From NCBI GenBank assembly GCA_018714695.1, contig DVNB01000046.1, positions 1 through 52,088 on the forward strand: a stretch of DNA of 52,088 bases. The letters are read 5' to 3'. This document shows positions 5,989-20,324 of this stretch, piece after piece. Under the pieces are notes generated by a model, which saw only the letters and a program-made list of their open reading frames with translations, ran no database searches and was not told the DNA's origin. The position numbers and the translations under genes are program-made. Source of the DNA: Candidatus Ornithomonoglobus merdipullorum (lineage in GTDB: Bacteria > Bacillota > Clostridia > UBA1381). How positions within the stretch are numbered: the stretch's first letter is position 1; each line of letters begins with the position of its first letter.

Positions 5989-8900
5989 TTACAGTTCTGT
6001 CTCATATAGTTTGGCATACGGTGCTTGAGTGTTTTTGTCCCAGATAATCACCTTCAAGCGCTCCGCGCCGTCCGCCAATGCGCTGTCAAATGTCTTGACA
6101 AATTCATTTTCCGTCTCTGTGACATCCTCCAAACGTATTCCCGCAAGCCTATTTTCTCTGTCATAATACGCGACAAACATGACCGCCTCTCGCGGTTCGC
6201 CGTCGCCCGCTGTTGTAACCGTCAGCACACCGTTTTCAACAGTACATTCGGTTATGGTATACGGATACGGCTTCTCTGTTTCTTCCGGATCAGGACTCGC
6301 TGTCGCTGTCGGACTTGGACTTACTTCCTCCGTCGCCTCCGGACTCGCTGTCGCTGTCGGGCTCGGACTTGCCGCCTCCGTTGCCTCCGGGCTTGCCGTC
6401 GCTGTCGGGCTTGGGCTTGCCGCCTCCGTCGGCGCCGGTACAGGTGACGGTGCCGGAACATCTGTTCTTATTATATAGACATAATCTATCGTCGCAGACT
6501 GATTATATCTTCCCAGAGTGTTTGTATAGCCGCTCACGCCTACGGTCGTCTCCTCAGTAAGAATGAGCTCATCCGATACGATCTCCGTATTCTTTTCCGA
6601 GTTTCCGTTTATAAAGCTCAACAGCATATTATTCTCGGCTGTGAGTGTACTGTCCATGTTTCTTACAACAAAATTTCGATTTCCATCGCTTATGTATCTT
6701 ACTACAAACTTGTATATTCCCGCAGACAGAGTCGCAAGCTCGGCACAGCTTCCGCCGGAAACATAGCCTCTCATCCCTCCCGATGCGGTATCCGAAACAG
6801 ATGCGTTTGCGATATCCTCCACGTAATATACTATATTATCCTCAGATGTCTTATAGCTTACATTAACGGTCTCCTCTGCGCCGTTTATTGTAAACTGTTT
6901 TTTGAATTCGCTCACAGTATCGTCATCAAGCTTGTAATAGAGTCCGTTTTCGCCCTGTATGATCGCCGTAACATTTTCCGTGAGCTCATCACCTATGAAG
7001 CCCACGCCGTTTGCCAGCTCTCCTATGTATCTTCCGTATTCATCGACCGCGTTTACGGTATATGAGCTGAGCTCTCCCACACGCTCCGCCGTTATCGCAA
7101 CATAATCGTACGTCGGCGAAAGATTATAGCTCGTTCTCAGCTGCAGCGTATGAGTTCCCGCCTTCAGATATAGGCTTATTTCGGCTATCCCGCGCTCCGT
7201 ACCTGAAGTGGCATGCGTTCCGATCTGCTCGCCGTCAACATAGATACCCATGCTGCGGTTCGAGCCTCTGCCCTCATATGCTATAGATATCGTATAGTAG
7301 CCGTCACTTTCAAGCTCTATATCGCTGTATTCGGAATACAAATTTGTCCTGTCCACCCGGAACGCCTTGCCGGATGAGTAATTCTCATCATTGCTCGCCT
7401 CTGAGCCGGAGCTGCTCGCATTGCCTTTGTGCTCTTCCGCCTCCGCGAAATAGACCATTTTTTCATTGCGGGCATAGGTCACGGTCCTGATCTCATCTCC
7501 GTCGCTGCCCATGGTAAAGCTGCGTGTATATGTCCGTTCTCCGCTGCCGTCCAGCTGAAGCTCGTAAAACACTCCGTCCTTTTCTATCACCTGCGGCAGC
7601 GCGCTCACCTTGTATTCTTCACCCGGTACTCCGGAAGCTTCCCCGATAGTCTGAATTACCTCTCCGCTCTCGTCCACCGCATTTATAACGGCATTATTTC
7701 CAAAGCAGCCTCTAAGAGATGTATTCCCGCGCAGACGGAAGGTATACTCAGCCTCCTCACTGACGATATTCCCTTCACTGTCCTTCCAATTTACAAAACT
7801 CATGCCCGCCTTAGGCTCAGCCTTTACAGTTACGAGAGTGTTTATCTCTCCGCCGTTGGTCGAGCAGCTGACTGTTCCGTAGCTTTCATTATCGGAGACC
7901 GCCTCCATGGTGTATACCGGCAGATCCTCCCTTGATCGGAGCTTCATCACCTTAAGATTCGATACCTGTATGCCCCCCGGCTGATTTGATGTATTCATAC
8001 CAATATGCATATGCGAAAGCGATGACGGTACTACATCCACAGATGTGGTACGGTATGCCGGCACCTCCGATGTCACGGTATTATCACCTACAGTAACGGT
8101 TATGGTCCCCAGGTCTATATCAAGCTCCGCATTGACAGTGGTCCATTCAGTTGTGCTGAGAACTGCCGCGCTCTCCTCATTATTGCCGTAAGCGTACACA
8201 TTGCCGTCGGCGTCAACAGATATGATATACATAGTCTGATCCGGGAACTGTGTGCCCTGATTTGCAAGACCTATGTTCATGTTGCCAAGACCTGTCGTTC
8301 TGAGATCTACAGAAACGGACACTCTCCCCTCCGTTCCGACACTCTCGCTCAGCTTTCTTGAAAGCGCGAAGGATGTACTGTTGCTGTCCTTTATAACATT
8401 TGTGTAGTACCTTCCGTTCTCCTCATGCAGCGTCGTATCCTTACCGCCGGAGCTTCCGTATACAGCCCAATTGTTCACGCCGTGAATATTGCGCGTTCCG
8501 TCATAGGTGACTCCGTAGAAACTGAAGTTCTCTGTTTCTTCTCCGTCCTCGTTCGGTACAAGTGCAGCGATCACCTCTGTTTCAACGTACGGATCCGAAT
8601 ACGCTATCCGCGCTCCGGAGGTTTCATCAAATATCAATCCCTCATCCTCATCGTCGAGAGCCTTGTATACAACGGCTGTGAATGTGTCACCCGCGTCCTC
8701 ATCATATACCGTATCGATATCTCCGGTCAGGCGGTTCGTCTCGCCGTCAACGGAGAAAATATTGACCGAGCCGTCATCCCAGGTGTTATCCACCTGTGTA
8801 GAGAATATCGTACCCTTCACCTCATTATCGGCGTCTCGTATAATAAGCTCAAGCTTGCCGTATGAATCCATCGACAATTTTGATTCCTGCTTTGTGATAG

Positions 8901-9360
8901 TCACCTCTGATATAGTGTTGTCATCATCCCATTCAACAGATGATATCTTGACCGGCAGCTCGGCTATATCACTTGATTGGAACACCTCCGGATACATGTC
9001 GTTAGGAGCCGCGCCCGCCTTAACGATCTCTTCCGATACCTTGTCCGGCTTTGCCTCTCTCATCCCATCAACAAGCGGAGCGAGCACATTTGCCTGTACC
9101 GTCTCGATAGGTGTCTTGTCCTCCTTATCAACCAGAGCCTTTATCCCATCAAAGAAGAATGATGCGGTAGCATCTGCGCCATAGTCATTCTCGTGTGTTC
9201 CGTCTACAGATGTGCCGCGCTGAGCACGGAAATAATAATCCGAGTATTTGCTGCTGTAGCCCGTCTCGCCCTTCTGCTGCCTTACCTCCTCGCATACCTC
9301 ACTGAGCCATTCGAGTGTGGGAGCGTTGAGATCAATAAACGCAACGTCTTTTGCTCCGTC
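5989..9360 (-). CDS. C-terminal part of a giant exported rhamnogalacturonan-acetylesterase-like protein (same frame as 9361-10608, after an in-frame TAG)
   Basis: The frame is open from 9360 to the TAA at 5989 (1,123 codons) and continues the frame of the gene upstream; only TAG at 9361-9363 separates them. A GTG at 9085-9087 could be called as a start, but it has no ribosome site. The first 60 codons finish the SGNH esterase: AFIDLNAPT, then DGTHENDYGA, the Asp-x-x-His block that completes the catalytic triad. Then come a concanavalin-like beta-sandwich (FSFYGVTYDGTRN...), an InlB-B-repeat-like segment (GMSFVNWKDSEGN), two CBM6/35-like modules (VYFAEAEEHKG... and YYVEDIANASV...), a Ser/Pro/Thr linker of three 16-residue repeats (6293-6436) and a C-terminal Ig-like domain. 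If TAG is a true stop, this part is untranslated and the gene is broken. If TAG is read through, the product is a 1,539-residue secreted enzyme. Confidence 0.8.
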   Translation of the reverse strand, partial: DGAKDVAFIDLNAPTLEWLSEVCEEVRQQKGETGYSSKYSDYYFRAQRGTSVDGTHENDYGADATASFFFDGIKALVDKEDKTPIETVQANVLAPLVDGMREAKPDKVSEEIVKAGAAPNDMYPEVFQSSDIAELPVKISSVEWDDDNTISEVTITKQESKLSMDSYGKLELIIRDADNEVKGTIFSTQVDNTWDDGSVNIFSVDGETNRLTGDIDTVYDEDAGDTFTAVVYKALDDEDEGLIFDETSGARIAYSDPYVETEVIAALVPNEDGEETENFSFYGVTYDGTRNIHGVNNWAVYGSSGGKDTTLHEENGRYYTNVIKDSNSTSFALSRKLSESVGTEGRVSVSVDLRTTGLGNMNIGLANQGTQFPDQTMYIISVDADGNVYAYGNNEESAAVLSTTEWTTVNAELDIDLGTITVTVGDNTVTSEVPAYRTTSVDVVPSSLSHMHIGMNTSNQPGGIQVSNLKVMKLRSREDLPVYTMEAVSDNESYGTVSCSTNGGEINTLVTVKAEPKAGMSFVNWKDSEGNIVSEEAEYTFRLRGNTSLRGCFGNNAVINAVDESGEVIQTIGEASGVPGEEYKVSALPQVIEKDGVFYELQLDGSGERTYTRSFTMGSDGDEIRTVTYARNEKMVYFAEAEEHKGNASSSGSEASNDENYSSGKAFRVDRTNLYSEYSDIELESDGYYTISIAYEGRGSNRSMGIYVDGEQIGTHATSGTERGIAEISLYLKAGTHTLQLRTSYNLSPTYDYVAITAERVGELSSYTVNAVDEYGRYIGELANGVGFIGDELTENVTAIIQGENGLYYKLDDDTVSEFKKQFTINGAEETVNVSYKTSEDNIVYYVEDIANASVSDTASGGMRGYVSGGSCAELATLSAGIYKFVVRYISDGNRNFVVRNMDSTLTAENNMLLSFINGNSEKNTEIVSDELILTEETTVGVSGYTNTLGRYNQSATIDYVYIIRTDVPAPSPVPAPTEAASPSPTATASPEATEAASPSPTATASPEATEEVSPSPTATASPDPEETEKPYPYTITECTVENGVLTVTTAGDGEPREAVMFVAYYDRENRLAGIRLEDVTETENEFVKTFDSALADGAERLKVIIWDKNTQAPYAKLYETEL
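6293..6436 (-). repeat. Three tandem 48-bp repeats encoding a Pro/Ser/Thr linker
   Basis: Units 6293-6340, 6341-6388 and 6389-6436 each encode a 16-residue unit of the type SPSPTATASPEATE. They form the linker between the carbohydrate-binding modules and the C-terminal domain of the esterase-like protein. The near-identical copies could change number by slippage, altering linker length in frame. Confidence 0.85.
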
Positions 9361-10608
9361 CTAGGTAATGCCTTCAGCTATCTTGCCGTCAGCCCACTCA
9401 TATACCGCGTCCGAAATGCTCGTTCCGCCCTCTTCCTTGACCTTAGCCGCAAACTCCTTTGCAAGATCTATACCTCCGCAGATAAGAAGCTCTGTATAAT
9501 ATCTTGCCGCCTTTGAAAAACCGCTGAGCGTTGACGACCACGTATTAGTTCCCGAATCGTACTGCGACGAATTATGACGGTCTATCGGTCCCACATACAC
9601 CATATACGCGCCCTTACTGTGCGCCCACTCATAGTATTCTGCAAGATACTGCACATACCCTGCCGGCCCGTCGTTTTTATGATTATGGCCGTACTGCAGG
9701 TATATGTAATCTCCTGCCTTTATATTCTCCTTGCAGAGGTTAAAATAGCTCATCGCATTTGCCGCAATACCGCCGTCGCCCTGATTTACCAGCGCCACAT
9801 CCTTCGGCAGATACTTCGAAAGATACTGAGCCGTTCCGCCGTAATTCTGCAGCGGGAAATACGGCAGGACCATAGGATAATCACATCCGGTAGAATCGTC
9901 ATAGCACCAAATCGTCGTTGCCGGTTCGATCTTCTCCACCTCTATCGATGAGATCGCGGCATTCTCTCCGACTACCATAACATTGAGCTTATCATCATCA
10001 TACGTTATAGTCCCGCCCGCGGCCCTGTCCTTTACCAGCACACTCTGGACTGTAGCCGTAAACTCCACAAGCTCCGTTTCTCCCGCCGCTATCGTCTTAT
10101 CCGTAACGATCGGATGCCTGCGCTCTGAATAAACATTTACCGACTCCGCAGGCTGTGATTCGTCAAGCGTTGTAACGTATACTTTAACGCTGTAATATCC
10201 GTTATTTTCCGCCGCCATGGAAAAGCGTATCGGATAAAGACCGTCTATCTGCCCCTCAGGCAGCTCGCCTATGCCTATACGGTCATCTGAAGCCTCGCTT
10301 CCGCTTCCCGCAGCAGTATATGTATAATACTGACCCTTTTTAGCTGTTACTCCGTCCTCATGATTTTTCAGCTTATAATCATTTTCGTTCTGGCCGTAAA
10401 GTCCGAACCTTAGTCCATCCTCCTCATTTGAATTATACTCTGTTTCGGGTGTGACACTGTAATACCCCGATTCCGTTGTCTGTCCGACCGGTCCGAAGTC
10501 AAACCTCCATGCGTCTCCCGTCTCCGCCGCAGGTACAACGGCAGGCATCGCTCCTATGCACCCTGCAAATACCGCAGCCGACAGCAGACCGGATAATACT
10601 TTTTTCAT
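9361..10608 (-). CDS. N-terminal part of exported SGNH/rhamnogalacturonan-acetylesterase-like protein, ending at an in-frame TAG
   Basis: This 415-codon part has a signal peptide (MKKVLSGLLSAAVFAGCIGA... cleaved near VPAAE), a beta-sandwich N-terminal module (about 30-225) and most of an SGNH hydrolase. Block I is CYDDSTG with the expected nucleophile Ser239 (Asp replaces the usual Gly of GDS). Block II is NQGDGG near 277. Block III is QYGHNH near 307. Family members remove acetyl groups from pectic rhamnogalacturonan. The catalytic Asp-x-x-His lies 54-57 codons after the TAG, so this part alone should be inactive. The start at 10608 is fixed by AAGGAGG ten bases upstream; an in-frame start at 10647 is rejected. 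A perfect TATAAT (10672-10677, minus) with no clear -35 lies about 65 bp upstream of the start. Confidence 0.85.
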   Translation of the reverse strand: MKKVLSGLLSAAVFAGCIGAMPAVVPAAETGDAWRFDFGPVGQTTESGYYSVTPETEYNSNEEDGLRFGLYGQNENDYKLKNHEDGVTAKKGQYYTYTAAGSGSEASDDRIGIGELPEGQIDGLYPIRFSMAAENNGYYSVKVYVTTLDESQPAESVNVYSERRHPIVTDKTIAAGETELVEFTATVQSVLVKDRAAGGTITYDDDKLNVMVVGENAAISSIEVEKIEPATTIWCYDDSTGCDYPMVLPYFPLQNYGGTAQYLSKYLPKDVALVNQGDGGIAANAMSYFNLCKENIKAGDYIYLQYGHNHKNDGPAGYVQYLAEYYEWAHSKGAYMVYVGPIDRHNSSQYDSGTNTWSSTLSGFSKAARYYTELLICGGIDLAKEFAAKVKEEGGTSISDAVYEWADGKIAEGIT

Positions 10609-10815: not shown

Positions 10816-12063
10816 TCATATGTCCGCGCCGTCAAGCCGCAGCAGTATCACTGCCGCCTCAGCACGTGTGGATATTCCGTCAGGACGGAACGTTCCGTCC
10901 TCGAATCCGTTTATGATACCGGCTGACGCAAGGGCATCCACCGCATCCTTTGCCCAGTCCGATACCGACTCTCTATCTGTAAAATCCATCATTCCTGTAG
11001 CTGATATCTGCACACAGCGCGCCGCCATCACAGCCAGTTCTTCACGCGTAATGCTGCTGTCGGGGCGGAAATACGCTCCGTCTCCAAGCGCTATCCCCTC
11101 GGCATAAGCAGCCGTGACATACGGTGCATACCATGCGTTAGTTGGGACATCCTCAAAAATACGGAGCACCGTATTTGTATTTAGTCCCATAAGGTCTACA
11201 AGCATTTTTGTAAACTGAGCTCTCGTTACAGCTTCCTCCGGTCTGAAGGTGCCGTCATCAAAGCCGTTTATGAGTCCGCGTCCCGCAAGCTCGATTATAC
11301 TGTCCTCAGCCCAATGTCCCGCTATATCCGAAAACTCGTTCTCCGGCTCCGAATCAGCCTCATCCGCCGGCCTTTCCGTCGCAGACGGCTGTTCCGTCTC
11401 TGACGGAGATCTTGTTGCAGACGGTCGTTCCGTCTCTGACGGAGACTCCGTTTCTGCCGGCTTTTCATTGGATCCGCTGCCGCCGCCGTTTGTCCCGGCT
11501 CCCCCTCCCGAGGCGGGGGAATGGGACGGAGAGAGAGTTGCCGAAGGCTCGTTAGTCTCGCCTTCTTCTGCTTCTTCTATGCCCGGAAGCGATATGCTTA
11601 TTTTATATTCGTTCTCTTCACTGTCCAGATCTACGGTCGTATAAAGCGTGGTGACAGTCAGCTCGGCAGTGCCGGAAGCGTTTTCAGCCGCCCCGAGCGT
11701 GACCGAGATGATATCGCCGCCGCCCTCAAACGTCACATCGTTCAGTGCAAAGGCTTTGAATTCACCGGGATCATCCTCATAAGAGCTCATATACGCGCTC
11801 TCATAAAGTGTTCCCGTCTCAACACCGCCTACCAGGATCTTATCCTCGGGATAAGTGATCCGAACTTCAGCGCCGTTTGCCGCGGTATCCGCGGGCAGAC
11901 TGAATCGGATCGTTATCCGGTCATCGGCGGACGCGAGCTTGCTCTTGTCATAGCTCACGGCTATAGGCTCTGCAGCTGCCTGTTCGGCGCGGACCGGATT
12001 TTGGACAGAGCACAGAATTACCGCCGCAAGAGCAAGCGCCGCGAAATTCTTTACTTTTATCAT
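10816..12063 (-). CDS. Cell-surface protein: cohesin-like domain plus three SLH domains
   Basis: A 415-residue exported protein. It has a signal peptide (MIKVKNFAALALAAVILCSV... to VRAEQ), then a cohesin-like beta-sandwich (about 28-160; ITIRFSLPADTAANGAEVRITYP... GTAELTVTTLYTT). A Gly- and Ser/Pro/Glu/Thr-rich linker with near-repeats of SPSETE(R/Q)PSAT follows (about 165-235). Three S-layer homology domains end the protein: FSDIAGHWAEDSI, FEDVPTNAWYAPYV and FTDRESVSDWAKDAV. SLH domains bind pyruvylated secondary wall polymer in known systems, so this is a plausible anchor. It starts 33 nt after the three-cohesin gene and is last in the transcript. Anchoring the dockerin protein through the cohesin-like domain is an inference; the domain is divergent and may only have the cohesin fold. 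Confidence 0.88.
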   Translation of the reverse strand: MIKVKNFAALALAAVILCSVQNPVRAEQAAAEPIAVSYDKSKLASADDRITIRFSLPADTAANGAEVRITYPEDKILVGGVETGTLYESAYMSSYEDDPGEFKAFALNDVTFEGGGDIISVTLGAAENASGTAELTVTTLYTTVDLDSEENEYKISISLPGIEEAEEGETNEPSATLSPSHSPASGGGAGTNGGGSGSNEKPAETESPSETERPSATRSPSETEQPSATERPADEADSEPENEFSDIAGHWAEDSIIELAGRGLINGFDDGTFRPEEAVTRAQFTKMLVDLMGLNTNTVLRIFEDVPTNAWYAPYVTAAYAEGIALGDGAYFRPDSSITREELAVMAARCVQISATGMMDFTDRESVSDWAKDAVDALASAGIINGFEDGTFRPDGISTRAEAAVILLRLDGADI

Positions 12064-14519: not shown

Positions 14520-17500
14520 TCAATCCCAGTTGGCAACTATTTCGATAAGATCGAATACATTTACGCTTCCGTCTCCGTTAACATCACATGCCGCTGTCTG
14601 AGCATCTGTGTAACCGTCGCCTCTGCCAAGGATCATCTGGAGAACCATATTAAAGTCTATAGTATTTACAACTCCGTCGCCGTCAACATCCTGTGAAGGT
14701 CTTGTAAGCTCCGCGATCTTCTCTTCAGCCGCTGTGAGCTTATCCTCGTCCGTCACATAGAGCTTAGCTGTATCGTTAAGAGCGTTGAATGCCTCTCTCG
14801 CCGCTTCAGCCTTAGTCTTTGCATCCTCAACGTTTTCAGCTGTTATCTCATCGGCTGCCGGAACAGCGTCGATAAGAGCATTTACAGCATTAGCCGCCTC
14901 TATAGCTTCCTGTACCGAATCAAATGCCGCATATGCCTTTTCAGCCTCAACAAGCACCGCATAATTTGATACCATGAGCTGCTGCTCTGACGTAAGAGCA
15001 TCGTATGAATCTCTTGCCGCAATTATAGCTGCGCCGGAATTCTCCGTAACTGTGCCTATAGCGTTTATAAGACCTACAGTCTCTACTACCGGACCAAGCT
15101 TTTCGAGATCAGATGCGAGCTGTTCAAGCTTCGTCTCAACTGCAGTGCTTGCAAGCATAGGCGATTGCTCTGTTCCGAGGTTCGGATACTTAGCGTCAAG
15201 AGCGTCCATCTTAGCCTTTGCTCCGTCATAAGCAGCCTTTGCCGCATCATAATTTTCAACGGTCACAGCACCGTTATACTGATTGTATATTGCAAGATTT
15301 TCTGTATTGATCACCGCAGCTTCAGCCTGAGCTGCCGCTACCGAGTCATAACGTGCCTTTTTGCTGTCAAGCATTTCTTTCGAGCTGGAAACTGCATTCT
15401 GCTGCTCTGCAGTAAATCCGTTATAGCTTTCCGCAAGTGCATTGTAAGCGTTTATAAATGCTGTCATAGCTTCCGCGTTTGTTGTGTAATCTACCTCCGC
15501 AAGATCTGATACGTCAGCTATAAATGTATCATAGCCCGATGCCGGATACGACTGCATAAGATGCGTGTAGAGCACGTACTGCTGTACATATTTTACCGAA
15601 TCGGCGTGATTTGCAGTTATATCGTCATAGATACCCGCAGCCTCATCAAGCGCTTTCTTAAGCGCCTCTGTATCTACAGGATCGGAATCGTTTATTGCCT
15701 TTGCCTCTAATACCTTGGTATCGAAGTCATATGCGGGCTTTATGATATCACATGTTGTGTTTATAGCTGCAAGCTTGGTTGTCTCGTTTCCGAAGCTGGA
15801 CGCTATGATATCGAGCTTAGCCTGCGCTGCCGTCTTCTCTGCCTCGTCCGCATCCTCCGACGCGATTGTCTCATTAAGACCGTCCACATAAGCGTTCACA
15901 GCATCTATCTTCGCAGCATAATCTTTATAGAGAGTTGTCGATGTTATATTCGGTATAGCGTTTACAGCATTAGCATAATTATCCGCCGTATCCTGCATAT
16001 ATGTTATCTGTGTCGCTTTGTCTGTAAAGAAGCCGCTTATAACGCTGTTTACATTCTCCTGTATAACGTCTATCGACTCGTCATACTGAGCCTTAAGCGT
16101 GCTGAACTCGGATGCGTCATTTACATACCACAGATTCTCCGTCTCATTATAAGCAAGGCTTATATCGAGAGCATTTGCGCTTTCGATTATGCTCCATGCG
16201 CTCTTCCACTGGTCGAGAGAAGAATCAACAAATGCGAGCATCGAATCCGAGCTTGACGGATAGAGCTGTGTAAAGTAGTTGATCGTTTCAACGTCATCCT
16301 GATAGATGAAGTTCATGTTCTGCTTAGCAGTATTTACAGCGTTAACGAGTGAATCGTATGCCTCTCTGTCGGCATCGATCGAAGCCTCATCCGTATAAGG
16401 TGTGGTTGAAAGCTTGTTATAAAGCTCTTCGATAAGACCTGTCAGTCTGTCCACCTCAGCCTGAGCCGCAGCCTCTACCTCTTCTTTTGCAGCCTCTATA
16501 GCCATATCTTCATCAAACTCAGCCTTGAGCTTGCTTTCGATAAGCGTATCGAGCTTAGTGTACGCAGCCTCCACCGTATTGTTTACCCACGGTTCCTCAT
16601 ACTCTGCCTCAGGATCAAACCCATTCGTCTTGCCTGTTGCATTAGTATACTGTTTTTCAAATTCAGCCTTTGCGTTATCATATGCCTTCTTCGCCTCAGT
16701 TGCTGCATCGCGAACATTCTTTGTGTTCTTAGCTGCCTCTGAATTATTATCAGCTGATACCTTATCGCCGTCATACTCTACGAGTGATGTATCATAATAA
16801 TCGATCGTATCCGGATAGAGCGAATCAAGAGTCTCTCTTATAGCGTCTTCGGTGTATTCATTGATCGTCTCGTAAGTCGCGCCCTGACCGCTATATATGA
16901 AATCGATCTCTGCCTGGATAGCGTTCGCATAAGCCAGACCCTTGCTTGCAAAGTCGTCTATTGCCTTCTTGTAGTTGAGAAGAACATTATACGTGTTCTC
17001 AATGTTTGTAAAGATATCCGATTTTGCTCCGTCATTTACGACCGGCTCACCGTCTTTATTAAGGCTTACGGTACCGTTTATCTTTTTGTTTACATCGTCA
17101 TATGCCTTTGCAGCATTATAGAAATCATTCGTATAATCATCTATATCTGCTGCGGAATTGTATGTGAGCGATGCCGCATAGTCGAGACAATCCTGAGCCT
17201 TATCATCATAGATCGCCTGCATAGCGTTGATGTTCTCTTCCTCATAGCCCGCCATTGTTTCCTCATAGCCTGCGAGGATCTCACCGTACGCCTTATTGTC
17301 TGCGTTCATATCGGCATTATCAACATACTTCTTCGCATTTGTCTTCAAAGCATCATATCTGTAACGCGCTATCTTTACAGCTGATACCCATTCAATATTA
17401 TTGCCAGCTTCTAAATCTTCTATTTTATCTATCGCATCTCTTGCCGCAGCCGTTATAGCCTCTGCCGTTTCCGACATAAGCTCCTCTGCCAATCCGATAT

Positions 17501-20324
17501 ACTCGATCGCCGCTTCATAATTTGCCTTGAGCTCTTCCGATGCGATGCTGTCAAAATCGCTTCCCGTTACCGCTTCGGCAGCCTGATACTTATCCATTGC
17601 TGTGTAGTAGAGATCTGCGATGTTCTCGTATGAATCTGCCGAGATACCTGTCTTATCGATCTCTGCCTTCAATGCATCCGATGCCGCTATGAAGTCTTCA
17701 ACGAGCGCATACTTGTCGAATGCCGAACGCCATGTCTCATATGTTGTATATGAGTTATCTGTCTTGTCTGCCTCAGCCTTTACTTCGTCTTTGTATTCAC
17801 TTGCGTTTACCGACTCATAGAGACTCGATATACCCTCTGCGAATACTGCGGCGTACTTATCGTCATATGTAGCGTCCGCAGCTGTGTAAACAGCCTTTGC
17901 TTCATTGAACATCGTTACGAAATCAGCCGCTGTCTTAGGAATGAATGTTCCGTCAACGTCATTCTTTATCGTCTCATAGATCGATGCGAGCTTATCGCCG
18001 TCATACGGATTCATCTGATCCTTTACCGACTGCGGAAGACTGTCATATAAACCTGCAAGCTCATTGACGTCTTCGATCTGTGACGAATAAACGAGGTAAT
18101 TATCCTGTGTTATCTTCGACGTATCGTTTGCTGTATCCCATACAAGAGCTATAGCGTCGTTGTACTTCTTTATAGTCTCATTGTCGTGATTTACAAGTAT
18201 GTCGTTGAGCATGCTGAGCTTGCTGTAGTTTACAGCTCCGACGAACTTCTGCGCTGTTGTAGATGTGAGAGCTTCATATTCATCCTGAACAGACTCTATC
18301 GCATCTCTTGAATCGTTTGCCTTTGTATATTTCTCATCTTCCGGAGCGTCATTTACAGCATCATAAACGCTGTCGAGCTTATCCTCTATGCTCTTAACGA
18401 CATTCCAGCCCTTGAGGCTCTCGGTAAGATCGAAATACTCGGCTCTGCACTTGTCATTTATGATCGTTTCCGCATTAAGTCCGGTCAATTCATCATTGAC
18501 AGCGCTTATTGCGTTATAATAGTCTTCATCAAACACAAGCTCTTCTTTATCCTCAACTACAACCGTCTTCAATACCTTTGTTGTATCGATAACAGTATTC
18601 TGAAGAAGATACTGTGCTCTCACGTTGTCTCCGTGATCATCTTCCTTTGATTTATAGCCAAAGCTTACATCGGAGATCGTTACCGGCGTCTCCTTATCTG
18701 CCGCGCTTGCAACAGCATAGATATACTTATCATCGCCTGGTGCCTTCGATATAGAAGCTGTGCCCGTTGTCGCTCCCTCAGCGATAGCTGCCGTTCCGAT
18801 TTTTGCGGATGCGTCAAAGTTCGTGCCGCTGCCGAAATCAGCTACCTTTGTATCCACAGCATAGATATCAACAGTCGTCGCATCTCCTGCCGCCGCAGCT
18901 GTAACATTTACCTTGTTAAGATCAGTGCCGTTGAGGCGTCCGAGATAGTATCTTGTGCCCGCAGCGTTCTGTACATCAGCATCTACCGTGTACTCAACCG
19001 ACTCCTTTGTCTTATAAACTAGTGAAAGCTCGCCGTATGAACCCGGCTCCACCTTATCAGCACCCTTTACCCACATGAGGAGTGTGCCGTCAAACATTTC
19101 CGCCGCTTTCGTTGTGTCTATCGGAACTTCAATGACGCCGTCAGCCGCGATCTCAAAATCGCCCTGATTTCCGTCTGCAGTCTCTACCGTTACATACTTC
19201 TTCTTATCCTTTGTGCTGAAAGTCAGCTTTGCAAGATAACCCGAGCCCTCAGTGATTCCGAGACCTCTTTCCGTATCAGTGATATACTCCGCGCCAAAGC
19301 TTGACACGTCCTTATTTCCTACAGTGACCTGGTCATGATCAAGAACGTTGTTTTTGATATAGCTGCTTACCTCCTGACCCGAATAGAGATAAACTACACT
19401 GTTATCACCCGGTAGTGACTTTACCGGGATATTGATCGACTTAGGACCATAGCCGAGCTCATCCTGCATAGGTATGTTGCTGTAATGAACAGCTGCATCC
19501 TTGTTTGCAGTCATGCCCGAAAGTCCGCCCGAATACGACCAGTCACCGAAACCGAAGTCGATGTTGTTCGTAAGCGTAGTCGATGTGCCCGACTCGGATG
19601 TAAATTCAGCCTTTACAGTCACATCGGACAGCATTACAGGATTCTGCTCAAAACTTTCCTTTTTAGGACCAGTGGTTGTTCCTGCAGTGATCATAAATGT
19701 ATCAACACTATCTGCTGCGGCATCTATCGGAAGTGAATCCTTTCTCTCCGTGACAGTATTTCCGCCTGATGTGACCTTAATATTTTGTGTTCTTGTCTGC
19801 AGATCAATATCAATCGTAACAGTTGCATCGGTATTGTGTATTGATGAAATATTTGCCTCGCCTGTGCCGTCAAGAACTATTGCCCCATCATCATCGTATT
19901 TTCCAACTGCACTCCAGACTCCGTTGTTAACCGGCAATCCCATGTTACTTGTTGTTGAGAAAGCGCCCGTATCTACAAGATCTGCATCTGCAACCGAGAA
20001 CATTACTCTGCCCGTTGGATCAATTTTAACATCAAAGCTAACTTCGACCTTGGTGGCTCCATCCGTGTACTGAGATATATCATAAGTCTTATATGCCTTA
20101 GGACTTCGTCCCGGTATTCTTGCTGATACTGGATAGTAACTGCCACTCTTAGAACCGACCTTAATATAAGTACCTTCTGTTGGTCCTTCAGACGCAGCCG
20201 TGCCTAAATCCAATGTGTTTGTAGTCGTTGCCGCCCCGGCGGTTATAGGCACCAGCCCTCCGGCAATGACCACAGAGACTGCCGTCAAAGTCGCCGTCAG
20301 CCTTTTCAAAGGTTTATTTTTCAT
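14520..20324 (-). CDS. Giant exported dockerin protein with long helical stalk
   Basis: 1,934 residues. A signal peptide (MKNKPLKRLTATLTAVSVVIAGG... to AGAAT) is followed by beta-rich modules to about residue 590. A very long acidic, Tyr- and Ala-rich, mostly helical region runs to about 1,870; near its end it shows FIVAR-like repeats (YDALTSEQQLMVSNYAVL, FNALNDTAKLYVTDEDKL). The C-terminus is a type I-like dockerin with two calcium-loop repeats, DVDGDGVVNTIDFNMVLQMILG and DVNGDGSVNVFDLIEIVANW. No catalytic domain is recognisable, so it looks like a structural fibre docked to a cohesin partner, most simply the three-cohesin protein encoded next. It is the first gene of the operon, with AAAGGAG before the ATG at 20324. 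The promoter spacer holds a ten-base homopolymer. Confidence 0.88.
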   Translation of the reverse strand: MKNKPLKRLTATLTAVSVVIAGGLVPITAGAATTTNTLDLGTAASEGPTEGTYIKVGSKSGSYYPVSARIPGRSPKAYKTYDISQYTDGATKVEVSFDVKIDPTGRVMFSVADADLVDTGAFSTTSNMGLPVNNGVWSAVGKYDDDGAIVLDGTGEANISSIHNTDATVTIDIDLQTRTQNIKVTSGGNTVTERKDSLPIDAAADSVDTFMITAGTTTGPKKESFEQNPVMLSDVTVKAEFTSESGTSTTLTNNIDFGFGDWSYSGGLSGMTANKDAAVHYSNIPMQDELGYGPKSINIPVKSLPGDNSVVYLYSGQEVSSYIKNNVLDHDQVTVGNKDVSSFGAEYITDTERGLGITEGSGYLAKLTFSTKDKKKYVTVETADGNQGDFEIAADGVIEVPIDTTKAAEMFDGTLLMWVKGADKVEPGSYGELSLVYKTKESVEYTVDADVQNAAGTRYYLGRLNGTDLNKVNVTAAAAGDATTVDIYAVDTKVADFGSGTNFDASAKIGTAAIAEGATTGTASISKAPGDDKYIYAVASAADKETPVTISDVSFGYKSKEDDHGDNVRAQYLLQNTVIDTTKVLKTVVVEDKEELVFDEDYYNAISAVNDELTGLNAETIINDKCRAEYFDLTESLKGWNVVKSIEDKLDSVYDAVNDAPEDEKYTKANDSRDAIESVQDEYEALTSTTAQKFVGAVNYSKLSMLNDILVNHDNETIKKYNDAIALVWDTANDTSKITQDNYLVYSSQIEDVNELAGLYDSLPQSVKDQMNPYDGDKLASIYETIKNDVDGTFIPKTAADFVTMFNEAKAVYTAADATYDDKYAAVFAEGISSLYESVNASEYKDEVKAEADKTDNSYTTYETWRSAFDKYALVEDFIAASDALKAEIDKTGISADSYENIADLYYTAMDKYQAAEAVTGSDFDSIASEELKANYEAAIEYIGLAEELMSETAEAITAAARDAIDKIEDLEAGNNIEWVSAVKIARYRYDALKTNAKKYVDNADMNADNKAYGEILAGYEETMAGYEEENINAMQAIYDDKAQDCLDYAASLTYNSAADIDDYTNDFYNAAKAYDDVNKKINGTVSLNKDGEPVVNDGAKSDIFTNIENTYNVLLNYKKAIDDFASKGLAYANAIQAEIDFIYSGQGATYETINEYTEDAIRETLDSLYPDTIDYYDTSLVEYDGDKVSADNNSEAAKNTKNVRDAATEAKKAYDNAKAEFEKQYTNATGKTNGFDPEAEYEEPWVNNTVEAAYTKLDTLIESKLKAEFDEDMAIEAAKEEVEAAAQAEVDRLTGLIEELYNKLSTTPYTDEASIDADREAYDSLVNAVNTAKQNMNFIYQDDVETINYFTQLYPSSSDSMLAFVDSSLDQWKSAWSIIESANALDISLAYNETENLWYVNDASEFSTLKAQYDESIDVIQENVNSVISGFFTDKATQITYMQDTADNYANAVNAIPNITSTTLYKDYAAKIDAVNAYVDGLNETIASEDADEAEKTAAQAKLDIIASSFGNETTKLAAINTTCDIIKPAYDFDTKVLEAKAINDSDPVDTEALKKALDEAAGIYDDITANHADSVKYVQQYVLYTHLMQSYPASGYDTFIADVSDLAEVDYTTNAEAMTAFINAYNALAESYNGFTAEQQNAVSSSKEMLDSKKARYDSVAAAQAEAAVINTENLAIYNQYNGAVTVENYDAAKAAYDGAKAKMDALDAKYPNLGTEQSPMLASTAVETKLEQLASDLEKLGPVVETVGLINAIGTVTENSGAAIIAARDSYDALTSEQQLMVSNYAVLVEAEKAYAAFDSVQEAIEAANAVNALIDAVPAADEITAENVEDAKTKAEAAREAFNALNDTAKLYVTDEDKLTAAEEKIAELTRPSQDVDGDGVVNTIDFNMVLQMILGRGDGYTDAQTAACDVNGDGSVNVFDLIEIVANWD

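Follow-up and report, generated by a model that had tools for sequence, protein, structure and literature searches.

In-frame stop codons in bacterial genes are widespread and mostly short-lived, on the time scale of population polymorphisms, according to Belinky et al. 2021 (PMC7918605). In the code 15 phages TAG is read as glutamine, as stated in PMC9523058, and the known stop-codon changes of bacteria reassign UGA according to PMC8629427, which also traces some false code inferences, made in yeasts, to in-frame stops of pseudogenes. The present analysis concerns a minus-strand gene in a stretch of 52,088 nucleotides (the window) from Candidatus Ornithomonoglobus merdipullorum (assembly GCA_018714695.1, contig DVNB01000046.1), the frame of which is split by a single TAG at 9361-9363 (codon 416) into parts of 415 and 1,123 codons. 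The most probable explanation, to which we assign a rough probability of 0.6, is a very recent nonsense substitution in the gene of a probably secreted GDSL/SGNH-type esterase of a bacterium using the standard code.

An interruption of this sort is already known. The young pseudogenes treated in Belinky et al. 2021 (PMC7918605) likewise feature a single in-frame stop, an open downstream frame and a sense codon in relatives, although the esterase stop differs from the cases described there in not being shared by any relative. With the code 15 phages, as portrayed in PMC9523058, the locus has in common an in-frame TAG within an otherwise open frame. In contrast to these phages, however, the esterase gene does not look phage-borne, contains one TAG only and resides in a genome that encodes release factor 1 (RF1), in which TAG terminates genes and no suppressor tRNA was found. 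The parts of the locus are the following:

9361..9363, minus strand: in-frame TAG, codon 416, read from the sequence; homologues carry a sense codon or a gap
9364..10608, minus strand: 415-codon upstream part with a signal-peptide-like start (judged by eye), an N-terminal region and the SGNH/GDSL-type Ser, Gly and Asn blocks, from the translation and alignments A1/A2
5989..9360, minus strand: 1,123-codon downstream part with the end of the esterase domain including Asp-x-x-His, C-terminal modules, an InlB B-repeat (PF18998) and the closing TAA
9019..9924, minus strand: esterase domain spanning the stop, 302 positions, from alignments A1/A2, model m52d1db7fc8fa and Foldseek
9193..9204, minus strand: Asp-Gly-Thr-His catalytic block past the TAG, with D241 and H244 invariant in A2

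The upstream part is opened by an ATG at 10606-10608, which is preceded by a Shine-Dalgarno-like motif (AAAGGAGGATTT / AAAGGAGG), and the downstream part is closed by a TAA at 5989-5991. A run of 1,123 codons would stay open by chance in a random frame with P ~ 9e-28. Moreover, the two sides of the TAG are alike in their mean codon-usage score per codon (0.240 versus 0.213) and similar in GC content at third codon positions. Among 13 pairs of neighbouring same-frame segments in the window, each segment of at least 120 codons, a TAG joins this pair only. The initial annotation had described one frame broken by the TAG alone and a downstream frame devoid of a ribosome site of its own, and both statements hold: 14 of the 16 searched homologue loci match across the stop, and four in-frame starts lie within 150 codons past the TAG, the first a GTG at +92, none of which has a Shine-Dalgarno motif at a usable distance as judged by eye. 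Reinitiation past the stop was rejected, since no nearby start with a usable motif exists and the resulting product would have no signal peptide.

The downstream part was matched in 29 of the 61 genomes searched, including the window's own (G000), many of these matches covering only the C-terminal modules; a first contig scan of genomes with the same part turned up no relative. When the full frame, with X at the stop, was compared by tblastn with 16 of the matched loci, the matches spanned the site in 14 of them, of which 13 belong to other genomes and the remaining one is a paralogue within G000, the two not reaching it being L051 and L052; none of the 14 has a stop there. A profile scan of named genomes yielded 20 loci, titled uncultured Clostridia, Oscillospiraceae, Bacillota and similar, the stated sources of which comprise goat ileum and rumen, roe deer rectum, rumen and 'Lapin'. 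At the site none of these 20 has a stop and seven are gapped; one (L214) shows a stop elsewhere in its alignment, away from the site. Six of the 20 lie on contigs equal in length to those of earlier loci and were treated as identical with them, leaving 28 distinct homologues, 27 from other genomes and the one paralogue.

The comparison with homologues suggested by the initial annotation thus returned a sense codon or a gap in all 28 and never a stop: Ala in six, Val and Glu in three each, Ser in two, Arg, Thr, Lys and Gly in one each, and a gap in 10, with one contig (L049/L215) giving Thr in one alignment and a gap in the other. As expected of a pseudogene, the stop is therefore absent from the homologues, with the proviso that these 10 are gapped. 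The nearest relative is the goat-ileum assembly RGIG2385 (L208), at a domain identity of 63-66%. In the predicted structure of the domain (mean pLDDT 89.7) the site falls on residue 188, within a segment (184-193) that links a helix to a strand, so that sequence and model both place the stop in what appears to be a variable loop; judged from the alignments, the position is not conserved enough to require a special amino acid.

Several lines of evidence, from sequence and structural modelling, support the assignment of the gene product as an SGNH-type esterase. In alignment A2 (19 sequences), D10, S11 and T12, G52, G79, H80 and N81, D241 and H244 are invariant, the last two of which we take to be catalytic in SGNH hydrolases. 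Profile searches matched YxiM of Bacillus subtilis (2o14) and rhamnogalacturonan acetylesterase (1deo), and Foldseek returned the same two structures with E values of 1.6e-9 and 7.7e-9 and modest TM-scores of about 0.5. The esterase shares with these SGNH hydrolases the DST, GHN and DxxH blocks, yet it is only 16-19% identical to them in the fold alignments and differs in a larger region between the Asn block and the Asp-His block, a long C-terminal part and the interrupted frame. Pfam Lipase_GDSL matches 11 of the 19 members, and no Pfam match covers the esterase domain in the window copy. The label 'esterase' given by the initial annotation is accordingly supported by motifs, by profile and fold comparison and by the Pfam matches of relatives, though the window copy itself lacks a domain match. 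The annotation was also right in placing Asp-x-x-His past the stop, but not at 54-57 codons: the distance from the TAG is 53 codons for the Asp and 56 for the His. Because this block comes after the stop, the truncated product should be inactive. The intact enzyme is probably secreted and would act on carbohydrate esters.

The age of the stop can be bounded from the downstream part, in which 412 of the 10,107 possible single changes create a stop. Without selection, a downstream part diverged by 1% would have escaped a second stop with a chance of 0.25 and one diverged by 2% with a chance of 0.06; these values drop far lower once indels are included at an assumed 0.1 per substitution. Neither a second stop nor a frameshift occurs in the 1,123 downstream codons; therefore, the stop is very young, or the downstream part is still under selection, or the base is wrong. 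Where seven homologues are identical, the window copy deviates in 3 of 74 columns preceding the stop and in 4 of 42 following it; the corresponding figures with four homologues are 11 of 130 and 16 of 101. We read this slight excess as no clear decay, the C-terminal part being less conserved anyway. The relaxed selection and further lesions expected of a pseudogene are thus not seen past the stop, and a pseudogene would at most be a very young one.

TAG serves as an ordinary stop in G000, which uses the standard code. Gene ends were sampled in 1.29 Mb (the window and 80 further stretches), about half of the 2.65 Mb genome, with a simple home-made gene caller. The 914 called genes end in TAA (437), TGA (427) and TAG (50), which makes TAG the rarest stop and leaves about 47 TAG terminators among 911 genes after subtraction of three interruptions; of the 23 frames that end in TAG within the first 0.45 Mb, 11 meet another stop within 20 codons. 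An apparent avoidance of TAG, suggested by 0 of 30 TAG-ended open reading frames in the window (hand-picked from 51, without the interrupted piece and without most of the frames that overlap on the opposite strand), was discarded, since at the 5-6% of the larger sample (50 of 914) such a count is unremarkable.

In line with these gene ends, G000 encodes full RF1 and RF2, the prfA product matching TIGR00019 with 548 bits against a cut-off of 423, so that the state of prfA, which the initial annotation had proposed to inspect together with CUA-anticodon tRNAs, is, judged by profile match, that of a gene for a full RF1. Infernal and ARAGORN detected no CUA tRNA among the 27 tRNAs of G000, a set that is incomplete and also lacks tRNAs for Ala, Ile, Glu, Asn and Trp, which renders this absence weak evidence. 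No DNA match in G000 was obtained with a CUA tRNA from a genome of the same genus (G001), and the sole match to a CUA pattern proved to be a tRNA-Arg(UCU) read one base off. PylS was not found above the TIGR02367 cut-off in any of 31 genomes, G000 itself being only 86% complete, and one of 14 control genomes, which included Methanosarcina acetivorans, passed. Weak matches in 30 of the 31 genomes (E 1e-7 to 1e-3) all lie far under the cut-off and were set aside as class II synthetase background.

The CUA tRNA of G001 lies at 1487-1562 on the minus strand of a contig (L079, G001:C101), between a phage replication gene (PHROG replication initiation/DnaD-like) and one resembling terminase small subunits (PHROG E 1.8e-8; Pfam Terminase_2 below its cut-off). 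The terminase-like frame contains one in-frame TAG, at about 1290-1292 on the minus strand, as does the next gene by eye, and the contig resembles a prophage whose late genes use TAG as a sense codon. This tRNA was matched at the DNA level in one of 16 genomes of the genus. G000 in turn contains a tRNA-Gly-like element (L030, 1498-1563 minus; G000:C34:36268-36327) with acceptor, D and T arms and no anticodon arm, which scores 44.5 bits to RF00005, is passed over by ARAGORN and has a fold z of -3.1. Its contig gives the impression of being partly phage-like, and a pattern of the armless element matched no viral contig.

In the scanned half of G000, in-frame interruptions were found in three genes, each by a TAG; on visual inspection, none of the same-frame continuations that follow a TAA or a TGA resembled one. 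This count may be low, as most same-frame continuations were dismissed by eye as neighbours with a start of their own and the scan was confined to stop interruptions in genes lying wholly within the stretches. Besides the esterase gene, an M16 peptidase gene (L084, G000:C111, plus strand) carries a TAG at 7990-7992, across which Pfam PF05193 continues. None of 17 orthologues (from 14 of 15 other genomes of the genus and 3 of 10 searched from the order) has an internal stop, the residue at the site being E in nine, D in six, N in one and G in one. The third gene (L106, G000:C6, 5161-7421 plus) has a TAG at 6630-6632 and, relative to a homologue in G007 that is itself listed with one internal TAA, lacks about 330 residues with a frame change at the junction, so that either the gene has decayed or its assembly is faulty. 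Random nonsense changes under the codon usage of G000 would give three TAGs out of three with a chance of 0.13-0.20, and the pattern is suggestive at most. No single amino acid is consistent at the TAG sites, the esterase site being variable and the peptidase site E, D, N or G. As a control, genes of G008, G005 and G001 were compared with G000; the 84 comparisons, which include none of the three TAG genes, yielded no stop and no frameshift, and 100 in the reverse direction yielded no stop and one frameshift call.

Under the favoured explanation, one recent substitution would have created the TAG, RF1 would end translation there to give an inactive 415-residue piece without the catalytic Asp-x-x-His, and the downstream frame would be intact solely because too little time has elapsed. 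This accords with the single lesion, the continuous homology, the stop-free relatives, the use of TAG as a stop and the presence of RF1, and takes the TAG base to be real in cells; the additional damage to another TAG gene, L106, whether by decay or misassembly, was counted in its favour. Several points weigh against it: the TAG is known from the draft assembly consensus of one genome of the species; three of three interruptions involve the rarest stop of G000; the peptidase gene is uninterrupted in 14 of the 15 other genomes of the genus, which is less expected of a dispensable gene; and broken genes are rare, to judge from the 84 comparisons. The initial annotation had named both a recent nonsense mutation and a sequencing error, either of which fits the evidence. 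That the TAG is a consensus error and the gene is open in cells is a less probable alternative. A single base would suffice, clear decay is not seen in the downstream frame, G000 is a draft of 124 contigs, 19 of the 20 named homologue records are labelled as metagenome-assembled genomes, and the gap in L106 could also stem from misassembly. On the contrary, the clean comparisons to G000 indicate a low error rate, and the gap with its frame change in L106 is not explicable as a base error.

Read-through or recoding, the third option of the initial annotation, found no support: RF1 is present, TAG ends genes, the site residue is unconserved, no PylS exceeds the cut-off and no CUA tRNA was found, the last point being weak. 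It is improbable that TAG acts as a working stop with low-level read-through by near-cognate tRNAs, supplying some full-length enzyme and allowing the interrupted allele to persist. The lone lesion and the three TAGs would suit it, and PMC7918605 makes a case for bacterial read-through of this kind; yet none of the 28 homologues shares the stop, so that nothing points to an allele of long standing, and L106 is also broken otherwise. That a dedicated suppressor tRNA, of the host or of a prophage, decodes TAG as in TAG-recoded phages is scarcely to be expected: the prophage-like contig with its CUA tRNA and in-frame TAG, the exclusive involvement of TAG and the incomplete tRNA set of G000 speak for it, whereas the intact RF1, the roughly 47 TAG-ended genes, the failure of Infernal, ARAGORN, pattern and DNA searches to find a CUA tRNA in G000 and the inconsistent residues at the TAG sites oppose it. 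Recoding of TAG in G000 is therefore unlikely, as far as the scanned half of the genome goes. A literature search on suppressor tRNAs in gut commensals brought up nothing that seemed relevant.

Relatives of the host stem largely from animal guts. Neighbouring minus-strand genes at 10816-12063 and 14520-20324 encode SLH repeats and a C-terminal dockerin domain, which fits a plant-fibre degrader, and the neighbourhood is probably a setting of cell-surface polysaccharide degradation. If the interruption is an ordinary one, it urges caution, as recoding does not follow from a long open frame past a single stop when the genome is a draft. It is very unlikely, by our estimate, that this lineage of uncultured Clostridia tolerates in-gene TAGs through leaky termination or an occasional prophage CUA tRNA, with TAG as a conditional regulatory stop. 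If true, conditional TAG suppression by a prophage tRNA would tie host gene expression to the state of the phage and constitute a new kind of regulation.
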